DNA from: an uncultured Acidimicrobiales bacterium
GTDB lineage: Bacteria > Actinomycetota > Acidimicrobiia > Acidimicrobiales > SHLQ01
Direction: 5' to 3'
NCBI GenBank assembly: GCA_938038785.1
Contig: CALHTB010000008.1
Location: forward strand, 1 to 64,000
DNA length: 64,000 nucleotides
The notes under the pieces were generated by a model that saw only the letters and a list, made by a program, of their open reading frames with translations, was not told the origin of the DNA and did not search any database. The first letter of the stretch is position 1. Each line of letters starts with the position of its first letter. Of the stretch, positions 41,776 through 53,102 are shown in pieces. Both the position numbers and the translations under genes were made by a program.

Positions 41776-44700
41776 CTAGCTACAAGGAGTTGCCGTAGCC
41801 GGATTTGATGCGCGCGGCGTGGCGATCGACCGCCACTCAAAGTCGAACGACGCGTTGCCTGAGTTCTGGCAACCGTTGTTCCCTCGTTCCCAACTGGTGA
41901 GTCGATTCCGCGTCGCAGGTAGGTCGACAGCGAAGGTAATCTGGTCGATGACGGTGCCTGCCGGATCTCGCAAGTCCACCACATTGTCTTGACTGATGTT
42001 CTTTGTGAAGGAGCGGTTTGCTAAAGGCCCAGAATAGGACTGTCCGCCAAGTAGGTACGTATCACCGGGTTGCAACGTGAAGTTCGGCAGGTTCGCGACC
42101 AAGCCGCCATCCTCGTAGATTCGGTAGCCCCTGAGGCTGATCGGGGTAGTCGACGGGTTGAACAGCTCGATGAACTCATCTTCGTCAACGCCAAGTCCGG
42201 TTGTGATCTCGCCGATGACGAGCCGGGCTGCTGGGTCGGACTGGTACGTCGGTGGTGTACACGGAATAATGCCATCCACGATACGTGTGGCCGTGATGTC
42301 GTAGTTGTGCTTGGTGAAGTCGGTTGCGTTGTCATTGGTGTCCTGGCACGTGCCTTGGCCATACACCGATTTACGTTTGAAGCTCTGGGGGCGGTTGGTG
42401 ACAACCGAGCGTGAGACGCCGGTGCCTTCGGACAAGCCCGAACTTGAGCTGCCAACCAAATCCAACACTCCGTACTGGTTGTGCACGATCTGGAACGAAT
42501 AGTCCCAGCTGTTGATCGCCGGGAGGAAAATCGCGTCGGTGTTGTTTCCAGGGATGCCGAACGGACCGAAGAGCTGTCCAATTAGGTAGTGTTCGCCAGC
42601 GGTCCACGGGTCAGCTTCGGCCCCTCCGATCGAAATTGGGGAATTCCCTACGAGCGTGCCGTTTTGATAGATCTCAAGCCGTATGTCTTTGCGATCGTAG
42701 GTGTACGGCGAAGCGTTATAGAGCTCGATGAAGTTGGCGTTGCCGGTGCCACTGTCGACCATTCCGTTGACGGCGAACTCACTGATGACCGGGTTGGCAA
42801 GGGCGAGGCCGGGTGCGTGTATCGGATCGTTCGAATCGCCCGCGCTGTTCGTGCGGGTTGGGTCCGGATCGGTATCGACAGATCCGATCGCAGTTGCACA
42901 GTTTCCGTTGGCGAGAGCGTCCCCGCTGCCGGTCCGTTCCCAACATCCGCTCATTGTGTGGTTGATGCCATCTGCGGTGAGTGACAACGAGTCGTTGCCG
43001 CTAAGGATGAGGTCAGCCTCGAACGTTGGATCCCAAACTCCCCACTGGACAAACGGCGGTCGCAAGCCAATTTCAGAGTCGGCCGCGGCCTCATCTCCCC
43101 ATGCCAAGTACGCGACGAGAAGCCCGTTGTCGTCATACATGAAGAGATCGTCGTTTGGTCGCAGCGTTTCGTTTGTTGTTGTGCTCGTAGGTGGAACCAC
43201 GAGCTCGAGGTCGGCGTCCGGAGCGGTCTCAGTTGTATTCGGGTCGAGCCAAATGACTGCCCGGCCCCCGTCGACGAGAGATTGACCTGGCCCAAACCCA
43301 ATGCCCAAGGGGTTGGCGTCGGGTTCTGCAGCGGGGTAGTCAAATATCGTCCAGCCTTCCAGGGAGACGGTGCCTCCGCTGATGTTGTAGATCTCGATGA
43401 AGTCGGTCTGGGTGCTGCCAGGCTTGTGTCCGGAGAAGGACACCTCATTGAAGATGACCTGACCCATGAACGGTGATGGGGTTGCGCCGAACCGACTTTC
43501 GACCGTAACGGTCACGCTTTGTGGTGCGCTGGTTTCAGCTGGCGTACCGTCGTCGGTCGCCTCAATCAGGAGGGTACGAACAGGGCCGTCATCGAAGTTG
43601 ATTGCGGTAGCGAGCGAAAGAGCACCCGACGAGTCGATCGTGAAGTTGCCAAGTGGGTCGCCGCCCACGATCGCGTAGTTCACTATCGAGCTGTCGACGT
43701 CGGTGGCGATAACGACGCCAGCGTTGCCGTTCAGGATCGTGCCAGCTGGCTGGTCATCGGCGATGGCGAAGATCTGCCCAGCAGCGACGACCGGCGGATC
43801 ATTTGCATCGTTGATGTCGATAGTGATCGTTCCTGTGTCATCAAAGTTGTCGGCAGTGCCAGTTTCGAAGACACGGAGGTCGAGGGTGTAGCTGTTCGTT
43901 GCTTCGAAGTCGAACTCTGCACTCGTGCTGATCACTCCGGTTGTTGGATCTATCGAGAACAGGCCAAGTCCCGTGCCGCCGGTGATCTCGTACTGGAACG
44001 AATCGCCGTCAGGCTCGAAGGTGCTGATCGTGGAAACGACCTGAACCGATGGCGTGAGGTTCTCGTCAACGTTGCCCCGACCAGAAATGGTCAACTCCGG
44101 TGGCTCGTTGACGTCGCCGACGGTGATGATTACCGACTCGGTAGACGGTTGGGCCGCTGGGCTGCCGGTTGCCGTTACCTGGACGGTGTAGGTGTCAAAC
44201 GACTCGACGTCGATCGTCGCTGGGCCGGCTCGGAAGATGTTTCCGTTGGCGTCGATGCCGAAGGTATTGGTCGGGTCGACGATGCTCCAGGTGACGGGGT
44301 CACCGTCGGGATCGACAAACGTTACGGCCCCTCCGGTCACTGGTGTTGAAGTAGGGACGTTCTCGTCGATCGTGAAGGTCTGGTTCGGGTTGATGACCGG
44401 CGGCTCGTCGAAGTTTCCAATAGGAATAACGATGGTTTGGGTATCGGTGAGCAGGCCATCATCGACGATGATGTCCAGCGTGTGCTGGGTGGTCGGCGGT
44501 GCGGTGTCGTAGTCGACGGCAACGTCGAGGGTGATTTCGCCGGTCAACGGGTCGATTGAGAAGATGCCGTCGCCAGTGCCGCCGACGATGCTCCAACTCA
44601 GCGTGTCATTTTCGGGGTCGGTTGCGACCAAGGAGGCGACAACCGCCGACGGGGTGGTGTTCTCGAGCATCACGGGAATGATCGTCGGCGTGATTTCCGG

Positions 44701-47700
44701 AGCTTCATTCTGGTCGGTGACGTCGATGTCGAGTGTCAGCGTGTCGCTGCCGGTCCCGCCCGAAAGCGAGTCGTCGACGGTGATGACCACCGTATGAAGG
44801 GTTTGGTTTTCGGTATCGAGGTCGGTGTTGTCAAATACGCTGATTTCGCCTGTGGTTGGGTCGATTGCGAATATCCCCGAAGGGTCGTTCATCGCAAAGG
44901 TGAGTTGGTTGCCTTCTGGATCGGTGGCGGTGATCTGGTCGGTGACAACGGTGCCCGCTGGGCTGTTCTCAAGAACGCGAACTGGCACCACCGGTGGAGC
45001 AACAATGGTCGGTGCTTCGTTGACGTCGATGATGTCGATCGTTGCTGGCTCCGAACCAGTCGCTCCGTCGGGATCGGTGGCGATGATAGTGATCGGATAG
45101 CTCGTAGCGGCCTCAAAGTCGAGCGATGACGCCAGACTGATTTCTCCGGTCGTTGGGTTGATTGCAAACGTGTTCGATGGGTCGTCGAGAGAGAACGTCA
45201 ACGCATCGGCGTCGCCGTCGGAGGCCTTTGCAACGGCCGGCGTGACCGCAAGTGGTGGTGCTGCGTCTTCAGAGATGGTGAACGTCTGTGCTGGCTCAAC
45301 GACAGGTGTTTCGTTGACGTCATTCACCACAATGACTACTGGCGCGGTGGCCGTTGCGCCAGGCACCGCGCTGTCGGTGACTGTCAGCGTAAGGCTGTAG
45401 GACGAGGCGGTCTCAAAGTCGAGCGGGGAGGTGTTTCGAATCTTGCCCAGCGCATCGATAGCAAAGTTGGAAGAGCCAGGACCGGTAAGTGAGTAGGTGA
45501 GCGCGTCACCATCTTCGTCCGAAGCGTTGATCTGCCCGACCAGGGTGGCGTTCGCTTGGTTCTCGTCGATGTCGAACGGTCCAAACGGTGCAATGGTGGG
45601 CGAGTCATTGCGATCGGTTACAAATACCGTCACCGGTGCGCTGCCCTGGCCTCCTGATGGATCTGTTGCCGTGACGGTCACCGTGAGCTGCGGCGTCGCC
45701 TCGTGATTGAGCGGCTTGGCTGTTCGAATGATCTCGCCGGTGGCAGGATCGATCGTGACATAACCACCGGGGTCGACGAGGCTGTACGTCAACGTGTCGT
45801 TCTCGATATCGGTAGCAACGATTGGAGGATCAAGCGTGACCGTTCCCGCAGGCGTATTCTCGCCAACGCTCACGGTTTGTCCAGTAACCACGATCGGTGC
45901 ATCGTTGGTGTCGACGACCGAAATGGTGATCGTCTCGGTGGCTGTCAGTGCCGGAGATCCGTCATCGGTGACTTCCACATCGAGCGTGTACGACGAGGTC
46001 GTTTCGAAGTCCAGAGGTTGTGTCACCGTGATTGCGCCGGTGGTTGGGTCGATTGTAAACACTGGTTCGCCGGTGCCACCAACGATCGCGTAGGTCAAGG
46101 AGTCGGCGTCGATATCGCTGGCCACAACAGTTGCAATATCGGTGCCTGGGATCGCGTTTTCTGGGACGCCTGGCACGGCAAGCGGCGCAATGGCTGGAGC
46201 TTCGTTGACATTGACGACGTTGATTACGACGGGCAACGTTGTTTGCGAACCGCTCGCTGCATCGGTTGCGATGATGGTCACGGCGAACAAATTCGAATTC
46301 TCGAAATCAAGAGGGGGAGCAACCAAGCTGATCTCGCCGGTCGCTGGATCGATCGCGAAGGTATTGCTGAGGTCGACGATCGAGTAGGTGATTGCGTCTC
46401 CCTCTGGGTCCGTTGCAGAAATTGCGCCGTTGGTAACGGGAACGTTCAGGCCAGCGTTCTCGGCGATGGTCAAGGTCTCAGGTGTTGCAAAGACGGGAGG
46501 TTGGTTGACGTTCGCAACAGGTTCGCTTGGCTTTGCTCCGACGGTGATGGTCACCTGTGCCGGAGGGCTCTCGAGCTCGCCGTCGGACGCGAGATAACTA
46601 AAGACAGTCTCACCAGAAAATCCAGGTGTAGGAGTAAAGGTGACGATGCCGTCAGCCAACGTGACCGTTCCATTTGGCGAGCTGCCAACGGTGGAGACCG
46701 ACAGCGAATCACTGTCGACATCGGTGTCGTTCGCTAGGAGGCTTGTGACGGGAATCTGGACAGCCTCGTCAAAGAGGGTTGTAGCACTATCTGGCTCTGC
46801 GACCGGCGCATCGTTTATGGGGTTGACATCAACGACGACGTTCTGTGTAACGGTGGTGGTGCCGTCGGAAACTGCGATGGTCAGAGCGACTTCAGCAGTC
46901 TCGGATCCATCATGGGTGATGGTCAGCTCTTGGCCCTGAATCGACGCGGTGCCGTTGGTGGGGGCTTCAACAATGGTGAGGGTCAGCTCGTCGCCATCGA
47001 GATCACGAGTGTCGATCTGCGCTGAGGCAGTCCCTCCTTCATCCACCGACACGCTTGGCGCCGAAAGAGAGGGCACATCATCGATTGGAGCAATGGAGAC
47101 AACGATGTTCTGGCTGCTGCACAGATTGGTCGCATCGCACACTTGGACTGCGAATGCGTCCGTGCCGTTGCTGTTGGAGTCTGGGGTGTAGACAAACTCG
47201 AGATCGCCGCCTGCACCCGATGGAACGATGGTACTAAGTGCGCCGTCCCCAAGTGCGACGTCCCCGCGCGATGGTTCGATGGTGACGGTGATACTAAATG
47301 GGCCGGTTCCAGAAACGGTAACAGATCCGGGAATCGGTTGGTCTTCGTCGCCGCTGACATCGAGGGCAGCGATCACTGGTGGTTCAGCTTCAGCAAAGGC
47401 GAGCTGTTCGGGCGCCGGCGGTTGCGCTTCGGGAAGCCCGACGATGGCGTTGACTGCGATCGCCACAGCCGCAGTGGCAGCTGACGCTGCGCTAGATACT
47501 GCAGTGGTGAGCGCGTTTCCGAGCGGAACGCCACGGATGATCGGCAGGTTGGTGAAGAAGGCGAGAGGGCCAGCGGTTCGACGGAGGTCACCCAGACCGA
47601 TGTTCATGAACGCTCGGGAGACAACAGGGTCGAACTGGCTGCCCGCCTTGTCTGCGACTTCCTGGCGGGCGAGCTCGGCGGGCATCGGCTTCTTGTACGA

Positions 47701-48561
47701 GCGCGTTGACGTCATCACGTCGAACGCGTCGGCGACTGCGACGATGCGAGCCGAGAGAGGGATATCAGTTCCTGCTTGGCCGAGCGGATAACCATTGCCA
47801 TCCCAGCGCTCGTGATGGCCAACCGCGGCGTGACGCCACTCGCCCAACCAGTCAGCGAGCGGTGCGAGGTATTCCTCAGCTTTCGCGGGGTGTTCTTTGA
47901 GAATGGCCCACTCTTCGTCGGTTGGTCGACCTTCCTTGTTCAGGATCTCCGAAGGCACGTGGAGCTTGCCCATATCGTGCAGAAGCGCCGACCAGCGGAG
48001 CTTGCCGAGTTCATCGTCTCCAAGGCCCATCTCTTCGCCGATGAGTTCGGAGTAGGCACGGACACGCTCGGCGTGGCCGCGGGTCATGCGGTCGTGCTCT
48101 GCGAGGACAGCCACGAGCTCGAGCATCTGCTCGGAGTAGGTGTCCTCGTCACTAAACAGCTCGCCGCTTTCTTGGATATCGGCGAGGCGTCGTTTGACAG
48201 ATCGGGTAGAGCCCGTTTTCAGCGCCACGGAAAATCGCGACGGAGCTTGATCGGGGAAGATCAGCGAGAGACGGAACAGCACCGTCAGGGGGGTCAGTTT
48301 CGACATGGCTCGCTCGAGAACCCGAACGAGAAGCATCGCGGCGATGGCAAGGCCGATCCACCACACCCACTTGTTCAATCCAACGCGCTCAGGTGGAAAG
48401 TTCTTTGAGACCCAAAGCGACGCGATGATCGAGACAACGAGTGGAAAGATGAAGATTAAGAATCGGACAATGCGCGCAAACCACTGATGGCTTTCCCATC
48501 GCGAAGTTTGAAGCTCGTCACTAGCCGTCTGTGTTGGGCCAGCCACCGGACCTGATGACAT
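41776..48561 (-). CDS. Giant HD-GYP / cadherin-repeat / lamin-tail-domain transmembrane protein, 2261 aa
   Basis: Two membrane helices (residues 31-51 and 65-82) are followed by a complete HD-GYP domain (about 145-320): His163, HD195-196 in LLHDMGKLHVP, HP224-225, HH249-250 and DGNGYP. A third hydrophobic segment (348-374) should put the rest outside. From about 395 to 690 there are Ig/cadherin-like modules, and from about 690 to 1690 ten cadherin-type repeats (each with ATDPEGD-, FAIDPTTGEI- and LDFE-like cores). Three lamin-tail domains end it, near 1697-1850, 1920-2003 and 2110-2184. HD-GYP domains break down cyclic di-GMP. No LPXTG or C-terminal anchor. A TTGACA lies about 50 bp upstream; no good -10 was seen. 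Confidence 0.92.
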   Translation of the reverse strand: MSSGPVAGPTQTASDELQTSRWESHQWFARIVRFLIFIFPLVVSIIASLWVSKNFPPERVGLNKWVWWIGLAIAAMLLVRVLERAMSKLTPLTVLFRLSLIFPDQAPSRFSVALKTGSTRSVKRRLADIQESGELFSDEDTYSEQMLELVAVLAEHDRMTRGHAERVRAYSELIGEEMGLGDDELGKLRWSALLHDMGKLHVPSEILNKEGRPTDEEWAILKEHPAKAEEYLAPLADWLGEWRHAAVGHHERWDGNGYPLGQAGTDIPLSARIVAVADAFDVMTSTRSYKKPMPAELARQEVADKAGSQFDPVVSRAFMNIGLGDLRRTAGPLAFFTNLPIIRGVPLGNALTTAVSSAASAATAAVAIAVNAIVGLPEAQPPAPEQLAFAEAEPPVIAALDVSGDEDQPIPGSVTVSGTGPFSITVTIEPSRGDVALGDGALSTIVPSGAGGDLEFVYTPDSNSNGTDAFAVQVCDATNLCSSQNIVVSIAPIDDVPSLSAPSVSVDEGGTASAQIDTRDLDGDELTLTIVEAPTNGTASIQGQELTITHDGSETAEVALTIAVSDGTTTVTQNVVVDVNPINDAPVAEPDSATTLFDEAVQIPVTSLLANDTDVDSDSLSVSTVGSSPNGTVTLADGIVTFTPTPGFSGETVFSYLASDGELESPPAQVTITVGAKPSEPVANVNQPPVFATPETLTIAENAGLNVPVTNGAISATDPEGDAITYSIVDLSNTFAIDPATGEISLVAPPLDFENSNLFAVTIIATDAASGSQTTLPVVINVVNVNEAPAIAPLAVPGVPENAIPGTDIATVVASDIDADSLTYAIVGGTGEPVFTIDPTTGAITVTQPLDFETTSSYTLDVEVTDDGSPALTATETITISVVDTNDAPIVVTGQTVSVGENTPAGTVTLDPPIVATDIENDTLTYSLVDPGGYVTIDPATGEIIRTAKPLNHEATPQLTVTVTATDPSGGQGSAPVTVFVTDRNDSPTIAPFGPFDIDENQANATLVGQINASDEDGDALTYSLTGPGSSNFAIDALGKIRNTSPLDFETASSYSLTLTVTDSAVPGATATAPVVIVVNDVNETPVVEPAQTFTISEDAAPPLAVTPAVAKASDGDADALTFSLDDPSNTFAINPTTGEISLASSLDFEAATSYPITIIATDPDGATGSEPATIDIIDVNEAPTIVAPPVVPVRVLENSPAGTVVTDQITATDPEGNQLTFAMNDPSGIFAIDPTTGEISVFDNTDLDTENQTLHTVVITVDDSLSGGTGSDTLTLDIDVTDQNEAPEITPTIIPVMLENTTPSAVVASLVATDPENDTLSWSIVGGTGDGIFSIDPLTGEITLDVAVDYDTAPPTTQHTLDIIVDDGLLTDTQTIVIPIGNFDEPPVINPNQTFTIDENVPTSTPVTGGAVTFVDPDGDPVTWSIVDPTNTFGIDANGNIFRAGPATIDVESFDTYTVQVTATGSPAAQPSTESVIITVGDVNEPPELTISGRGNVDENLTPSVQVVSTISTFEPDGDSFQYEITGGTGLGLFSIDPTTGVISTSAEFDFEATNSYTLDLRVFETGTADNFDDTGTITIDINDANDPPVVAAGQIFAIADDQPAGTILNGNAGVVIATDVDSSIVNYAIVGGDPLGNFTIDSSGALSLATAINFDDGPVRTLLIEATDDGTPAETSAPQSVTVTVESRFGATPSPFMGQVIFNEVSFSGHKPGSTQTDFIEIYNISGGTVSLEGWTIFDYPAAEPDANPLGIGFGPGQSLVDGGRAVIWLDPNTTETAPDADLELVVPPTSTTTNETLRPNDDLFMYDDNGLLVAYLAWGDEAAADSEIGLRPPFVQWGVWDPTFEADLILSGNDSLSLTADGINHTMSGCWERTGSGDALANGNCATAIGSVDTDPDPTRTNSAGDSNDPIHAPGLALANPVISEFAVNGMVDSGTGNANFIELYNASPYTYDRKDIRLEIYQNGTLVGNSPISIGGAEADPWTAGEHYLIGQLFGPFGIPGNNTDAIFLPAINSWDYSFQIVHNQYGVLDLVGSSSSGLSEGTGVSRSVVTNRPQSFKRKSVYGQGTCQDTNDNATDFTKHNYDITATRIVDGIIPCTPPTYQSDPAARLVIGEITTGLGVDEDEFIELFNPSTTPISLRGYRIYEDGGLVANLPNFTLQPGDTYLLGGQSYSGPLANRSFTKNISQDNVVDLRDPAGTVIDQITFAVDLPATRNRLTSWERGNNGCQNSGNASFDFEWRSIATPRASNPATATPCS

Positions 48562-48730
48562 ACAGGCTTAATCGGTGCGAGTACCCCAAAAGTAAGATTC
48601 CGTATGTCAAAATGTACGGCCCATACCCCCTGCTAATTCAGGGCTTTATGTGTTGTTCTCGGTTGTGATGGAGGGGTTCCCGCAAGGCTTTTCACGAAAA
48701 GTCGCAGGATTCGTGGAGGACCCGAGATAC
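48562..48730. other. Non-coding gap between the giant gene and gcvP
   Basis: 169 bp that must hold the promoter of the giant minus-strand gene and the end of the gcvP gene upstream of it. A TTGACA (minus strand, about 48605-48610) could be a -35 box. I see no RNA gene and no clear terminator. Confidence 0.3.
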
Positions 48731-51574
48731 CTAGCCTTCGTAGGCGCTCATCGGCGGGCACGAACACTGCAGATTTCGATCGCCGAAACTGTTGTCGACC
48801 CTGGCAATTGCCGGCCAGAATTTTGTGCCTGTGAGCCACGGCGCAGGGTAGGCCGCGGATGCCCGCGAGTAGGGATGTGACCAGTCGTCGCTGGTGACCT
48901 CGGCGACGGTGTGCGGTGCGTTGACCAAGACATTGTCCTCCGGGTCGGCGTCCCCTTTTTCAACTGATCGGATCTCGTCGCGGATCGAGATGAGGGCATC
49001 GCAGAAGCGGTCGATCTCGGCGAGTGATTCGCTCTCGGTCGGCTCGATCATGAGGGTGCCAGCGACCGGCCACGACATGGTCGGAGCGTGGAAGCCATAG
49101 TCGATCAGGCGCTTTGCGATGTCTTCAGCATCGGCAATTTCCTTAACCCCGCGAATGTCGATGATGCACTCGTGGGCAACGTGTCCTTGTGCTCCCTTGT
49201 AGAGGACCGGGAAGTGTGGATCGAGACGTGCCGCAATGTAGTTGGCGTTCAAGATTGCGAGCCGGCTCGCATCAGCGAGACCGTCAGGCCCCATCATCGC
49301 GATGTAGGCGTAGCTGATCGGCAGAATCGCGGCCGACCCCCACGGCGCGGCGCTGACGATATAGCCATCGTCTTTCGAGGTGGCAGGGTTGCTGTTGGAG
49401 GTTGGCAGGTGCGCCTCCAGGTGGGGTGCGACACAGATCGGACCGACACCAGGGCCGCCTCCGCCGTGGGGGATGCAGAAGGTCTTGTGCAAGTTCAAGT
49501 GGCACACGTCAGCGCCGAAGTCTCCCGGCCGACTCAGGCCGACCTGAGCGTTCATGTTGGCGCCATCGAGGTACACCTGACCCCCGTCGGCGTGGATGAT
49601 CTCGCACACTCGCTCGATGGACTCCTCGAAGACACCGTGGGTTGATGGGTAGGTAACCATCAACGCTGCGAGCTCGGCTGAATGCTCGATCGCCTTGGCC
49701 TCCAAGTCAGCAACATCGATGTTGCCATCGCTGTCGGTTCCAACAGCGACGACGGTCATCCCGGCCATCACCGCCGATGCCGGATTTGTGCCGTGCGCCG
49801 AGTCGGGAATTAGGCAGATACGGCGGCCATCGTCTCCGTTGGCTGCATGAAAGGAGGCAATGGTGAGCAGACCGGCGTATTCGCCTTGTGATCCGGCATT
49901 GGGCTGAAGCGAAGTAGCAGTGAAGCCGGTGATCTCGGCGAGCCAGGCTTCTAGTCGACGGGTGAGCTCGGCATACCCCTGTTGCTGGTCGAGCGGGGCA
50001 TAGGGATGGATGCGCGCGAAACCCTCCCAGGTAACTGGGATCATCTCGGTCGTCGCGTTGAGTTTCATCGTGCACGAGCCAAGCGGGATCATCGAGTGCG
50101 CAAGCGACAGGTCCTTGTTTCGCAAGCTCGTGATGTAGCGCAACATCTCGGTTTCGCTGTGGTGGCTGTTGAAGACCGGGTGGGTCATGAACGGGCTTGT
50201 GCGGGCGAACGCTTGGGCAACCTGGCCACCAGCGTTGGTGGCCGGGTCGTTCCCGAAGAGCGCATTGGTGAGCGCGGCGAGGTCGACATGGCTGATTGTC
50301 TCGTCCATGGCCACGCCAACCGAGCCGTCTTCGTAGGTGCGCAGGTTGAACCCAGCAGCGCGGGCCAACTCGGGCAAGGTTGCGAGGTCGGGCCCGCCGA
50401 CAAGTGTGACGGTGTCGAAGAACGCTTCGGACTGCAGCTCGTAGCCTGCCGCGATTGCGGTTGAGGCAAATTGAGAAGCTCGTTCGTGGATGCCCATCGC
50501 AATGCTGCGAATGCCACGCGGTCCGTGGTACACCCCGTACATCGATGCCATCACTGCGAGGAGAACCTGCGCCGTGCAGATGTTCGACGTGGCCGAGTCG
50601 CGGCGGATGTGTTGCTCGCGGGTTTGCAGCGCCATGCGAAGAGCGGGAGCACCGTGGCGGTCCTTGGAAACCGAAATCAGACGCCCAGGGAGGCTTCGGG
50701 CGTTTGCCTCGGCGGTCGCAAGAAACGCTGCGTGCGGTCCGCCAGCGCCCAGGGGTACACCAAAGCGTTGTGATGAGCCGACGACGATGTCGGCGCCCCA
50801 TTCGCCCGGAGGTGTGAGGAGCGCGCACGCCATCAAATCGGTGGCCGCAATCACGTATGCGCCAGCCTCGTGAGCTTTGTCGGCGAGGCTCTGGTAGCTG
50901 TCGACCGAGCCGCGGGTGTCGGGGTATTGCACCAGCACCCCGAACACGTCGTCGTCGAAGGTGGCAGCGTCGGCGTCGCCAACCACAAGGTTGATGCCCA
51001 GCGGGACCGCTCGTGTTCGAACGACGTCGAGAGTTTGCGGGTGGCAACGGTCAGACACAACAAAGGTGCTGGCGGTGCTCTTGCGTCCCTTCATTCGTCG
51101 CGCCATCGTCATTGCCTCGGCAGCGGCGGTGGCCTCGTCGAGCAGTGATGCGTTGCTCATCTCCATGCCGGTGAGGTCTGCCACCATGGTCTGGAAGTTG
51201 AGGAGCGCCTCGAGACGGCCTTGGGCGATTTCGGCCTGGTACGGCGTGTAGGCGGTATACCACCCCGGGTCTTCCAGCACGTTTCGCAAGATGACCGTCG
51301 GAGTGAGCGTGTCGTAATACCCCTGCCCAATGAGCGACCGCAGCACCGTGTTCTGTTCGGCGAGACCCCGCAAATCGGCGAGCGTCTCGACTTCGCTCAT
51401 TGCTTGGGGAAGATCGAGCAAGCCATCGAACGCAATGTTCTCGGGCACGGTCTCGGTGATGAGCTGTTCGAGGGTGGCCACCCCAACGGTCGCCAGCATC
51501 TTTTCCTGTGCGTGATCATCGGGCCCGTTGTGCCTGTCGACGAACTCTCGGTGTGTGTGGTTGTCGGTGTCCAT
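48731..51574 (-). CDS. gcvP: Glycine dehydrogenase (decarboxylating), P protein
   Basis: Full-length, 947 residues, the single-chain P protein. N-half blocks: [52 protein letters not shown], and [21 protein letters not shown]-half: [32 protein letters not shown] and the PLP lysine in [20 protein letters not shown] (about residue 695). It decarboxylates glycine and loads aminomethyl onto lipoyl-GcvH. It follows gcvT by 65 bp under the same glycine riboswitch. gcvH is not in the window. Confidence 0.95.
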
Positions 51575-52810: not shown

Positions 52811-52975
52811 CCTGTCTGTGAACCTGAGAGATTGAAGCCCCGTCGGTGCGAATCAGATGATTCGGCTCTCCAGAGATGCCACCGAGGCGATCCTTTTGCC
52901 TGAGAGTTTCGCTTTGGAACCTGGCGGGTTCGTCAGCTTGCACCTTCGGCGGTCGAATTCACGACGCTCTCTCAC
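52811..52975 (-). promoter_or_regulatory. Tandem glycine riboswitch
   Basis: Two consecutive aptamer cores are readable on the minus strand. First: GAGAGCG, then CGCCGAAGGTGCAA, then ACTCTCAGGCAAAAGGATCG. Second: TCTGGAGAGCCG, then CACCGACGGGGC, then AATCTCTCAGG. These are the conserved GAGAG / CCGAnGGnGCAA / CTCAGGnAAAAGGA blocks of glycine aptamers in the usual tandem order. It lies directly ahead of gcvT. The second aptamer's distal AAAAGGA is less well conserved. Confidence 0.92.
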
Positions 52976-53102
52976 TTCGGTTGATGGCGATATGAAGTTG
53001 TGCTGACACCGTACCCGCATTGGCGCTGCGTGACCAGGACCAAGCCTCACAGCGCAACCGGCGCTATCTTGGCGGAACTGACCTCTAGCTCAGGGAGCTT
53101 TC

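Follow-up and report, generated by a model that had tools for sequence, protein, structure and literature searches.

The layout of the gene, its domain matches, predicted structure and relatives leave us judging the chances about even that the protein studied here is a transmembrane receptor-type c-di-GMP phosphodiesterase, in which an outer stalk and head control an enzyme inside the cell. The protein is encoded by a single minus-strand ORF (41776-48561, ATG start, 2261 aa) in the window, the whole 64,000-nucleotide stretch of DNA analysed, and all of the parts whose coordinates are given below lie on this strand. It runs from two membrane helices through a motif-complete HD-GYP domain and a third hydrophobic stretch into a tail of ~1885 residues, which is low in Lys and Arg and is built of Ig modules, ten cadherin repeats and three lamin-tail (LTD) units. 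It is the presence on one chain of an intact enzyme, a low-charge stalk with calcium motifs and binding modules that leads us to the receptor reading. The anatomy of the protein is well supported, and from it we infer the exterior location of the tail, its binding and the transmission of a signal, together with the direction of that signal and the ligand.

One gene in several genomes

The earlier note, made from the DNA letters, had placed this order of domains in one 2261-aa protein, and both Pfam and the ORF confirm it. The window comes from a MAG of 134 contigs, which lends some colour to the alternative that an assembly or annotation artefact has fused two genes; however, the nearest relatives, frames from two other MAGs (L007, 2530 aa, and L008, 2254 aa), match the window protein along its full length. 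The L007 module (a pair of membrane helices followed by the FP[DE]xAPSR motif, HD-GYP and the Ala-rich third hydrophobic stretch) is 90-96% identical to that of the window over most of its length, and its gene neighbours are those of the window, with gcvP on one side and, on the other, a methyltransferase and then an SHMT-like gene; L008 shares the downstream methyltransferase-SHMT side only. Combined with the gcvP-gene-methyltransferase-SHMT order in L007, these full-length collinear orthologues indicate that several MAGs carry the same single gene, and we reject an assembly join, giving an artefact of either kind a negligible probability. Neither the join nor homologues with the parts in separate genes, two of the outcomes that the earlier note had held against its own reading, were seen, as the frame continues past the module in 79 related loci unless the contig ends. 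On the same strand the gene is preceded by gcvT and gcvP, and upstream of these two lies a glycine riboswitch (RF00504, 62.7 bits; 52878-52984, minus strand). Upstream of the HD-GYP/cadherin gene itself (48400-48900) no c-di-GMP riboswitch or other RNA matched Rfam at E<=1.

The HD-GYP module

Pfam places an HD_5 domain at residues 151-314 (47620-48111; E 1.3e-34), with no Pfam match at E<=0.01 before residue 151, and the HD-GYP motifs that had been listed from the letters alone are complete and correctly numbered (HD195-196, HP224-225, HH249-250, GYP257-259). Across 86 distinct modules, a set from which five duplicate modules were left out along with three members in which a regex recognised no GYP motif, the metal-ligand positions H163, H195, D196, H224, H249, H250 and D278 are invariant, as are K199, D254, G255, G257, Y258, P259 and R287, with D157 kept in 85/86 and K290 in 83/86. 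According to the PmGH study (PMC4159591), the equivalents of these residues in PmGH serve as iron ligands, are required for activity or touch the guanine base. Catalytic residues that are present in 86/86 modules are as expected for a working enzyme, and their invariance weakens the earlier option that the HD-GYP part serves solely for export or anchoring. The FP[DE]xAPSR segment after TM2 is likewise near-invariant across the family (FPDQAPSRF in the window protein, residues 102-110, 48232-48258), with F102, P103 and P107 found in 86/86 modules.

Position 159, the equivalent of PmGH E185, is Leu in 49 modules, Met in 25, Arg in 8, Ala in 2 and Phe in 1, so that the Glu by which the trinuclear subgroup of HD-GYP domains is recognised is absent from the 85/86 whose residue was recorded. 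The same study notes that E185 can be replaced with reduced activity, and that a residue other than Glu at this position is associated with a binuclear centre (PMC4159591). We predict a metal centre of the binuclear type for the module. The best Foldseek matches in the PDB are HD-GYP structures, the nearest fold being the bimetallic PA4781 (4r8z; E 6.9e-10, TM-score 0.76 over the target). By sequence, the solved structure that matches best is that of the cGAMP phosphodiesterase V-cGAP3 (5z7c, E 1.2e-52), which raises the alternative that the substrate is another cyclic dinucleotide, e.g. 3'3'-cGAMP, instead of c-di-GMP. We give this a slim chance, since the well-kept R287 and K290 correspond to the guanine-contacting R314 and K317 of PmGH (PMC4159591) and the window genome, with 25 GGDEF, 20 EAL and one PilZ match, points to heavy use of c-di-GMP, although its GGDEF domains may include cGAMP makers. 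These GGDEF and EAL domains would supply and share the c-di-GMP substrate.

Membrane topology and the tail

Kyte-Doolittle hydropathy marks segments at residues 31-49, 65-83 and about 357-375, in agreement with the earlier placement of HD-GYP between the second and third predicted helices. AlphaFold models the HD-GYP domain and a membrane hairpin with confidence, the latter made of TM1 (helix 26-54, 48400-48486; hydropathy 2.58, pLDDT about 80-98) and TM2 (64-97, 48271-48372), which continues as a cytoplasmic helix. The Ala-rich TM3 (about residues 358-376, 47434-47490; hydropathy 1.91), predicted to cross to the exterior, is modelled as a low-confidence helix (359-374), and the stretch from HD-GYP to TM3, together with TM3, has a pLDDT of about 37-63. 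Given an N terminus on the inside, the two helices before it would place HD-GYP in the cytoplasm, and the third helix would then export the tail. Composition and hydrophobicity are consistent with HD-GYP inside and the tail outside: Lys plus Arg has a median of 3.0% in the tail against 12.2% in the cytoplasmic part and is lower in the tail of 105/105 members measured (a set that leaves out L050, which is without the spaced motif), and the mean hydropathy of TM3 reaches 1.5 in 89/105, its flanking charge being weak (median 1 Lys/Arg before and 0 after). The exterior tail of the earlier note is thus supported at the level of sequence, and the cytoplasmic tail that would have spoken against it was not seen. 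Just outside TM3 a juxtamembrane pattern, P-x(1,5)-[LIVAM]-A-[FYL] (PPAPEQLAF in the window protein, residues 381-389, 47395-47421), occurs in 57/106 members against 15% of shuffled stretches and is a possible processing or sorting signal.

Beyond this point the window protein has Big_9/cadherin-like Ig modules (about residues 390-680, 46522-47394; Pfam matches to Big_9 and Cadherin_4/5), followed by ten cadherin repeats (about residues 690-1690, 43492-46494) that PF00028 matches in ten stretches with E 1.1e-102. The genome's 10 PF00028 matches, 9 of them above cut-off, all lie inside this gene. Cadherins carry the calcium-ligand motifs DxD, LDxE and DxNDxP, and here these number 7, 8 and 8 against 0.25, 1.3 and 0.08 in shuffled sequence, spaced ~100 residues apart (for DxN[DE]xP also 8 observed against 0.08 shuffled). 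Both Pfam and the calcium motifs bear out the ten cadherin-type repeats and Ig/cadherin-like modules first read from the sequence. The three LTD domains claimed with them are found as well, two by Pfam alone and one by a local HMM made from tail sequences: PF00932 scores 98.4 bits against a cut-off of 34.3, with two stretches that pass alone, and LTD 1 (43096-43464) and LTD 3, close to the C terminus (41932-42237), flank a divergent LTD 2 (about residues 1923-2080, 42322-42795), which is below the Pfam cut-off alone and belongs to a three-unit pattern visible in an alignment with relatives. The structural model of the three LTDs is too weak for use (mean pLDDT 55.9).

Paralogues and distribution of the family

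A search of the window genome found six HD_5 places, five of which share the same module. The paralogue modules are 43-48% identical to the window protein and their tails differ, there being, beside the cadherin/LTD tail of the window protein, Big_9 with FG-GAP repeats (L087), Big_9 (L086), and a Thr-rich spacer joined either to pentapeptide repeats (L088) or to an unnamed domain (L089). All genomes of the genus (11/11) match a model of the module's N-terminal part, with 1-11 matches each, some of them weak or partial. In a sample of the class 137/395 genomes match at E<=1e-3 but no more than 51 do so at E<=1e-20, the weaker matches being mostly to the start of ordinary HD-GYP domains and the copy numbers lower bounds drawn from the best nine candidates per genome; in a sample of the phylum, which overlaps that of the class, 20/396 genomes match at 1e-12, the window genome included. 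Moreover, 155 relatives were found across 84,980 species, taken at one genome each, and most of the best 80 of these 155 (79 loci), which were analysed, come from Acidimicrobiales, Acidimicrobiia or a family within. One single-contig genome carries two copies.

With five paralogues in the genome and a family that extends across genus and class, the idea of a lone oddity is not borne out. The combination of Ig/cadherin modules with LTD recurs in 26/106 tails and 24/86 complete tails (local HMMs); the cadherin-LTD tail of the earlier note is therefore found again in relatives, but the family has at least seven tail types, of which this is one. Of the complete tails, 79/86 have three or more Ig-like modules or else a run of 60 residues with at least 60% Thr/Pro/Ser, a share that has a maximum of 0.30 in the modules, none of which is at stalk level. 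We suggest from these sequences that membrane helix, stalk and binding head form a common plan of the family. Other giant members (L098, L109, L110, L111 and L021) have frames of 1862-2625 aa, and in L021 the local HMM recognises nine LTD units.

A possible mechanism and its alternatives

We envisage that the N terminus and the HD-GYP enzyme would lie in the cytoplasm behind the two-helix membrane hairpin, that the third helix would take the chain out of the cell, and that the Ig/cadherin repeats, once bound to calcium, would make a stiff stalk, in principle long enough to span the wall, that presents the three LTD units at its tip. Binding of the tail to a surface, a polymer or a neighbouring cell could then cluster or reorient the enzyme and in this way change c-di-GMP hydrolysis, and several receptors with different heads in one genome would feed one reaction. 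The flexible-looking link between enzyme and TM3, with its low pLDDT, favours clustering or changed dimerisation on multivalent binding over a piston, and going by the model it is unlikely that the membrane is crossed by a stiff pushing movement.

The main rival to such outside-in signalling is control from the inside out, whereby c-di-GMP bound or hydrolysed in HD-GYP alters how the adhesive tail is displayed, clustered or released. DvhD, as described in PMC13090378, is a membrane protein with an HD-GYP domain that acts inside-out on adhesin retention. This domain (9rbz) is among the closest folds by Foldseek, and the window tail is itself adhesin-like. LapD likewise exerts such control on a separate adhesin. 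However, in that same account DvhD is without the HD and HH motifs and inactive (PMC13090378), whereas the family keeps both in 86/86 modules, and the LapG-type adhesin protease PF06035 had no match in the window genome, which is 73% complete. What we observe is thus not the degenerate c-di-GMP receptor with a LapG-type peptidase that defines Lap/Dvh-type systems, and inside-out control seems to us unlikely, if still worth serious attention.

A rather more doubtful alternative is that no signal crosses the membrane at all, the enzyme being a constitutive local c-di-GMP sink or a platform for export or anchoring, and the tail a plain adhesin or surface-layer element. The poorly ordered link in the AlphaFold model would suit this, as would the toleration of very different tails, among them the low-complexity tail of L118 (710-aa frame), which has no recognised domain; yet the intact enzyme and the FP[DE]xAPSR hairpin region are retained with every tail type, and the expansion of paralogues is hard to explain if any anchor sufficed. 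We think it quite improbable that the tail is exported and then cut near TM3 to give a secreted adhesin and a separate membrane enzyme: the Ala-rich character of TM3 and the conserved motif that follows it in 57/106 members would allow for cleavage, but this motif is missing in the other 49/106, and module and tail stay in one gene at the loci examined.

Relation to known systems

PmGH (4mcw), PA4781 (4r8z) and V-cGAP3 (5z7c) share with the module its fold, the HD, HP, HHExxDGxGYP and RxYK motifs and the first-shell metal residues; the family differs from PmGH in having mostly Leu or Met in place of E185 (predicted binuclear), and from all three in that the enzyme is followed by TM3 and then by an exterior that can reach about 2200 residues. 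Bacterial surface proteins with cadherin/Big_9 and LTD likewise have calcium-motif cadherin repeats, an Ig stalk and a C-terminal LTD, but in the window family the chain also includes a cytoplasmic enzyme. Receptor-type adhesion proteins of animals that have cytoplasmic enzymes are alike in plan only, with adhesive repeats outside and an enzyme inside; as an analogy this would imply no common descent of the whole protein, and the chemistry here would be c-di-GMP hydrolysis. DvhD of Desulfovibrio vulgaris (9rbz, 9rc0) is also a membrane protein whose cytoplasmic HD-GYP is tied to surface adhesion, but its HD-GYP domain has no catalytic activity, a dCache domain makes up the part outside the cell, and the adhesin it acts on is another protein (PMC13090378). 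One-component c-di-GMP enzymes with Cache, CHASE or PBP sensors similarly join a variable extracytoplasmic part to a c-di-GMP enzyme, whereas in the window protein, compared with those described in PMC8846402, the exterior comes after the enzyme, is far longer and consists of adhesion modules.

Full-text literature searches, within the scope of titles and abstract openings and with supplementary architecture tables outside it, gave no description of HD-GYP fused to cadherin or LTD and, in the same scope of titles and abstract openings, no paper on HD-GYP proteins of Acidimicrobiia. What we present as new is a transmembrane c-di-GMP enzyme with an exterior of adhesion modules on its C-terminal side, diversified as a family. 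Adhesion modules and c-di-GMP turnover on one chain offer a testable case in Acidimicrobiia, which have few cultured members, and a set of exchangeable heads on a single conserved enzyme would account for the way in which such bacteria tie attachment to many surfaces to one signal.

Exchange and divergence of the tails

The domain that closes a tail varies across the family and may be LTD, pentapeptide, FG-GAP, C-type lectin, CBM6 or one without a name. When 105 tails (seven duplicates and three members with tails under 60 aa having been removed) were compared with Pfam, Big_9 was found in 53, LTD in 25, Cadherin in 19 and pentapeptide repeats in 8, with FG-GAP_3 (4), C-type lectin (2), CBM_6 (2) and NHL (1) being rarer. 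On the module tree, a quick one with many weak forks, nine tail labels (20 members open at a contig end being left out) need at least 26 changes, where the minimum is 8 and shuffles give 52.6. Tails appear to be inherited in clades but also to have been exchanged repeatedly, and the expectation of one tail type per clade holds only in part.

Between the window protein and L007, its nearest orthologue, dN rises from 0.054 in the module to 0.10 in the TM3 region, and further to 0.41 over the Ig/cadherin modules and 0.60 over the LTDs, with pS near saturation throughout (0.62, 0.61, 0.68 and 0.76, respectively). As synonymous sites are saturated we do not claim positive selection on the tails, and their fast change also fits relaxed constraint or recombination among repeats. 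A constant enzyme inside with a swapped and fast-evolving exterior is what one would expect of a set of surface receptors. A bolder form of this idea, which we hold to be improbable, is that the cadherin/LTD and other heads make up a repertoire of contact receptors that recognise neighbours or partners in trans, that their clustering directly switches c-di-GMP hydrolysis, and that new specificities keep arising, much as in animal receptors, as domains are exchanged on a module that stays the same, through tandem copies and by at least one sharp conversion tract of module length.

The tract in question was seen in one genome (G368, contig C24; L091:3855-7946), where two tandem family genes have an exact 988-nt tract in common that reaches from TM1 to TM3, with both flanks only about 50% identical. 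It is either a recent conversion of module length or an assembly artefact, and among the tandem pairs compared this is the only one with an exact tract. A general rule that tandem copies evolve in concert is unsupported, the orthologues in the G754/G758 pairs being 97 or 91% identical against ~82% for neighbouring copies. Two C-terminal domains recur in the tails without a name. One, of ~130 aa and ending like DQMRIFTAC, is present in 12 tails (including L089, L091, L100, L114, L059, L060, L057 and L067), and the two examples scanned, L089 and L091, had no Pfam match outside the HD domain. The other, ending like YDxxxxPSALTI, was found by local HMM in 17 tails, among them L052, L065, L068, L071, L072, L077, L079, L082 and L117.
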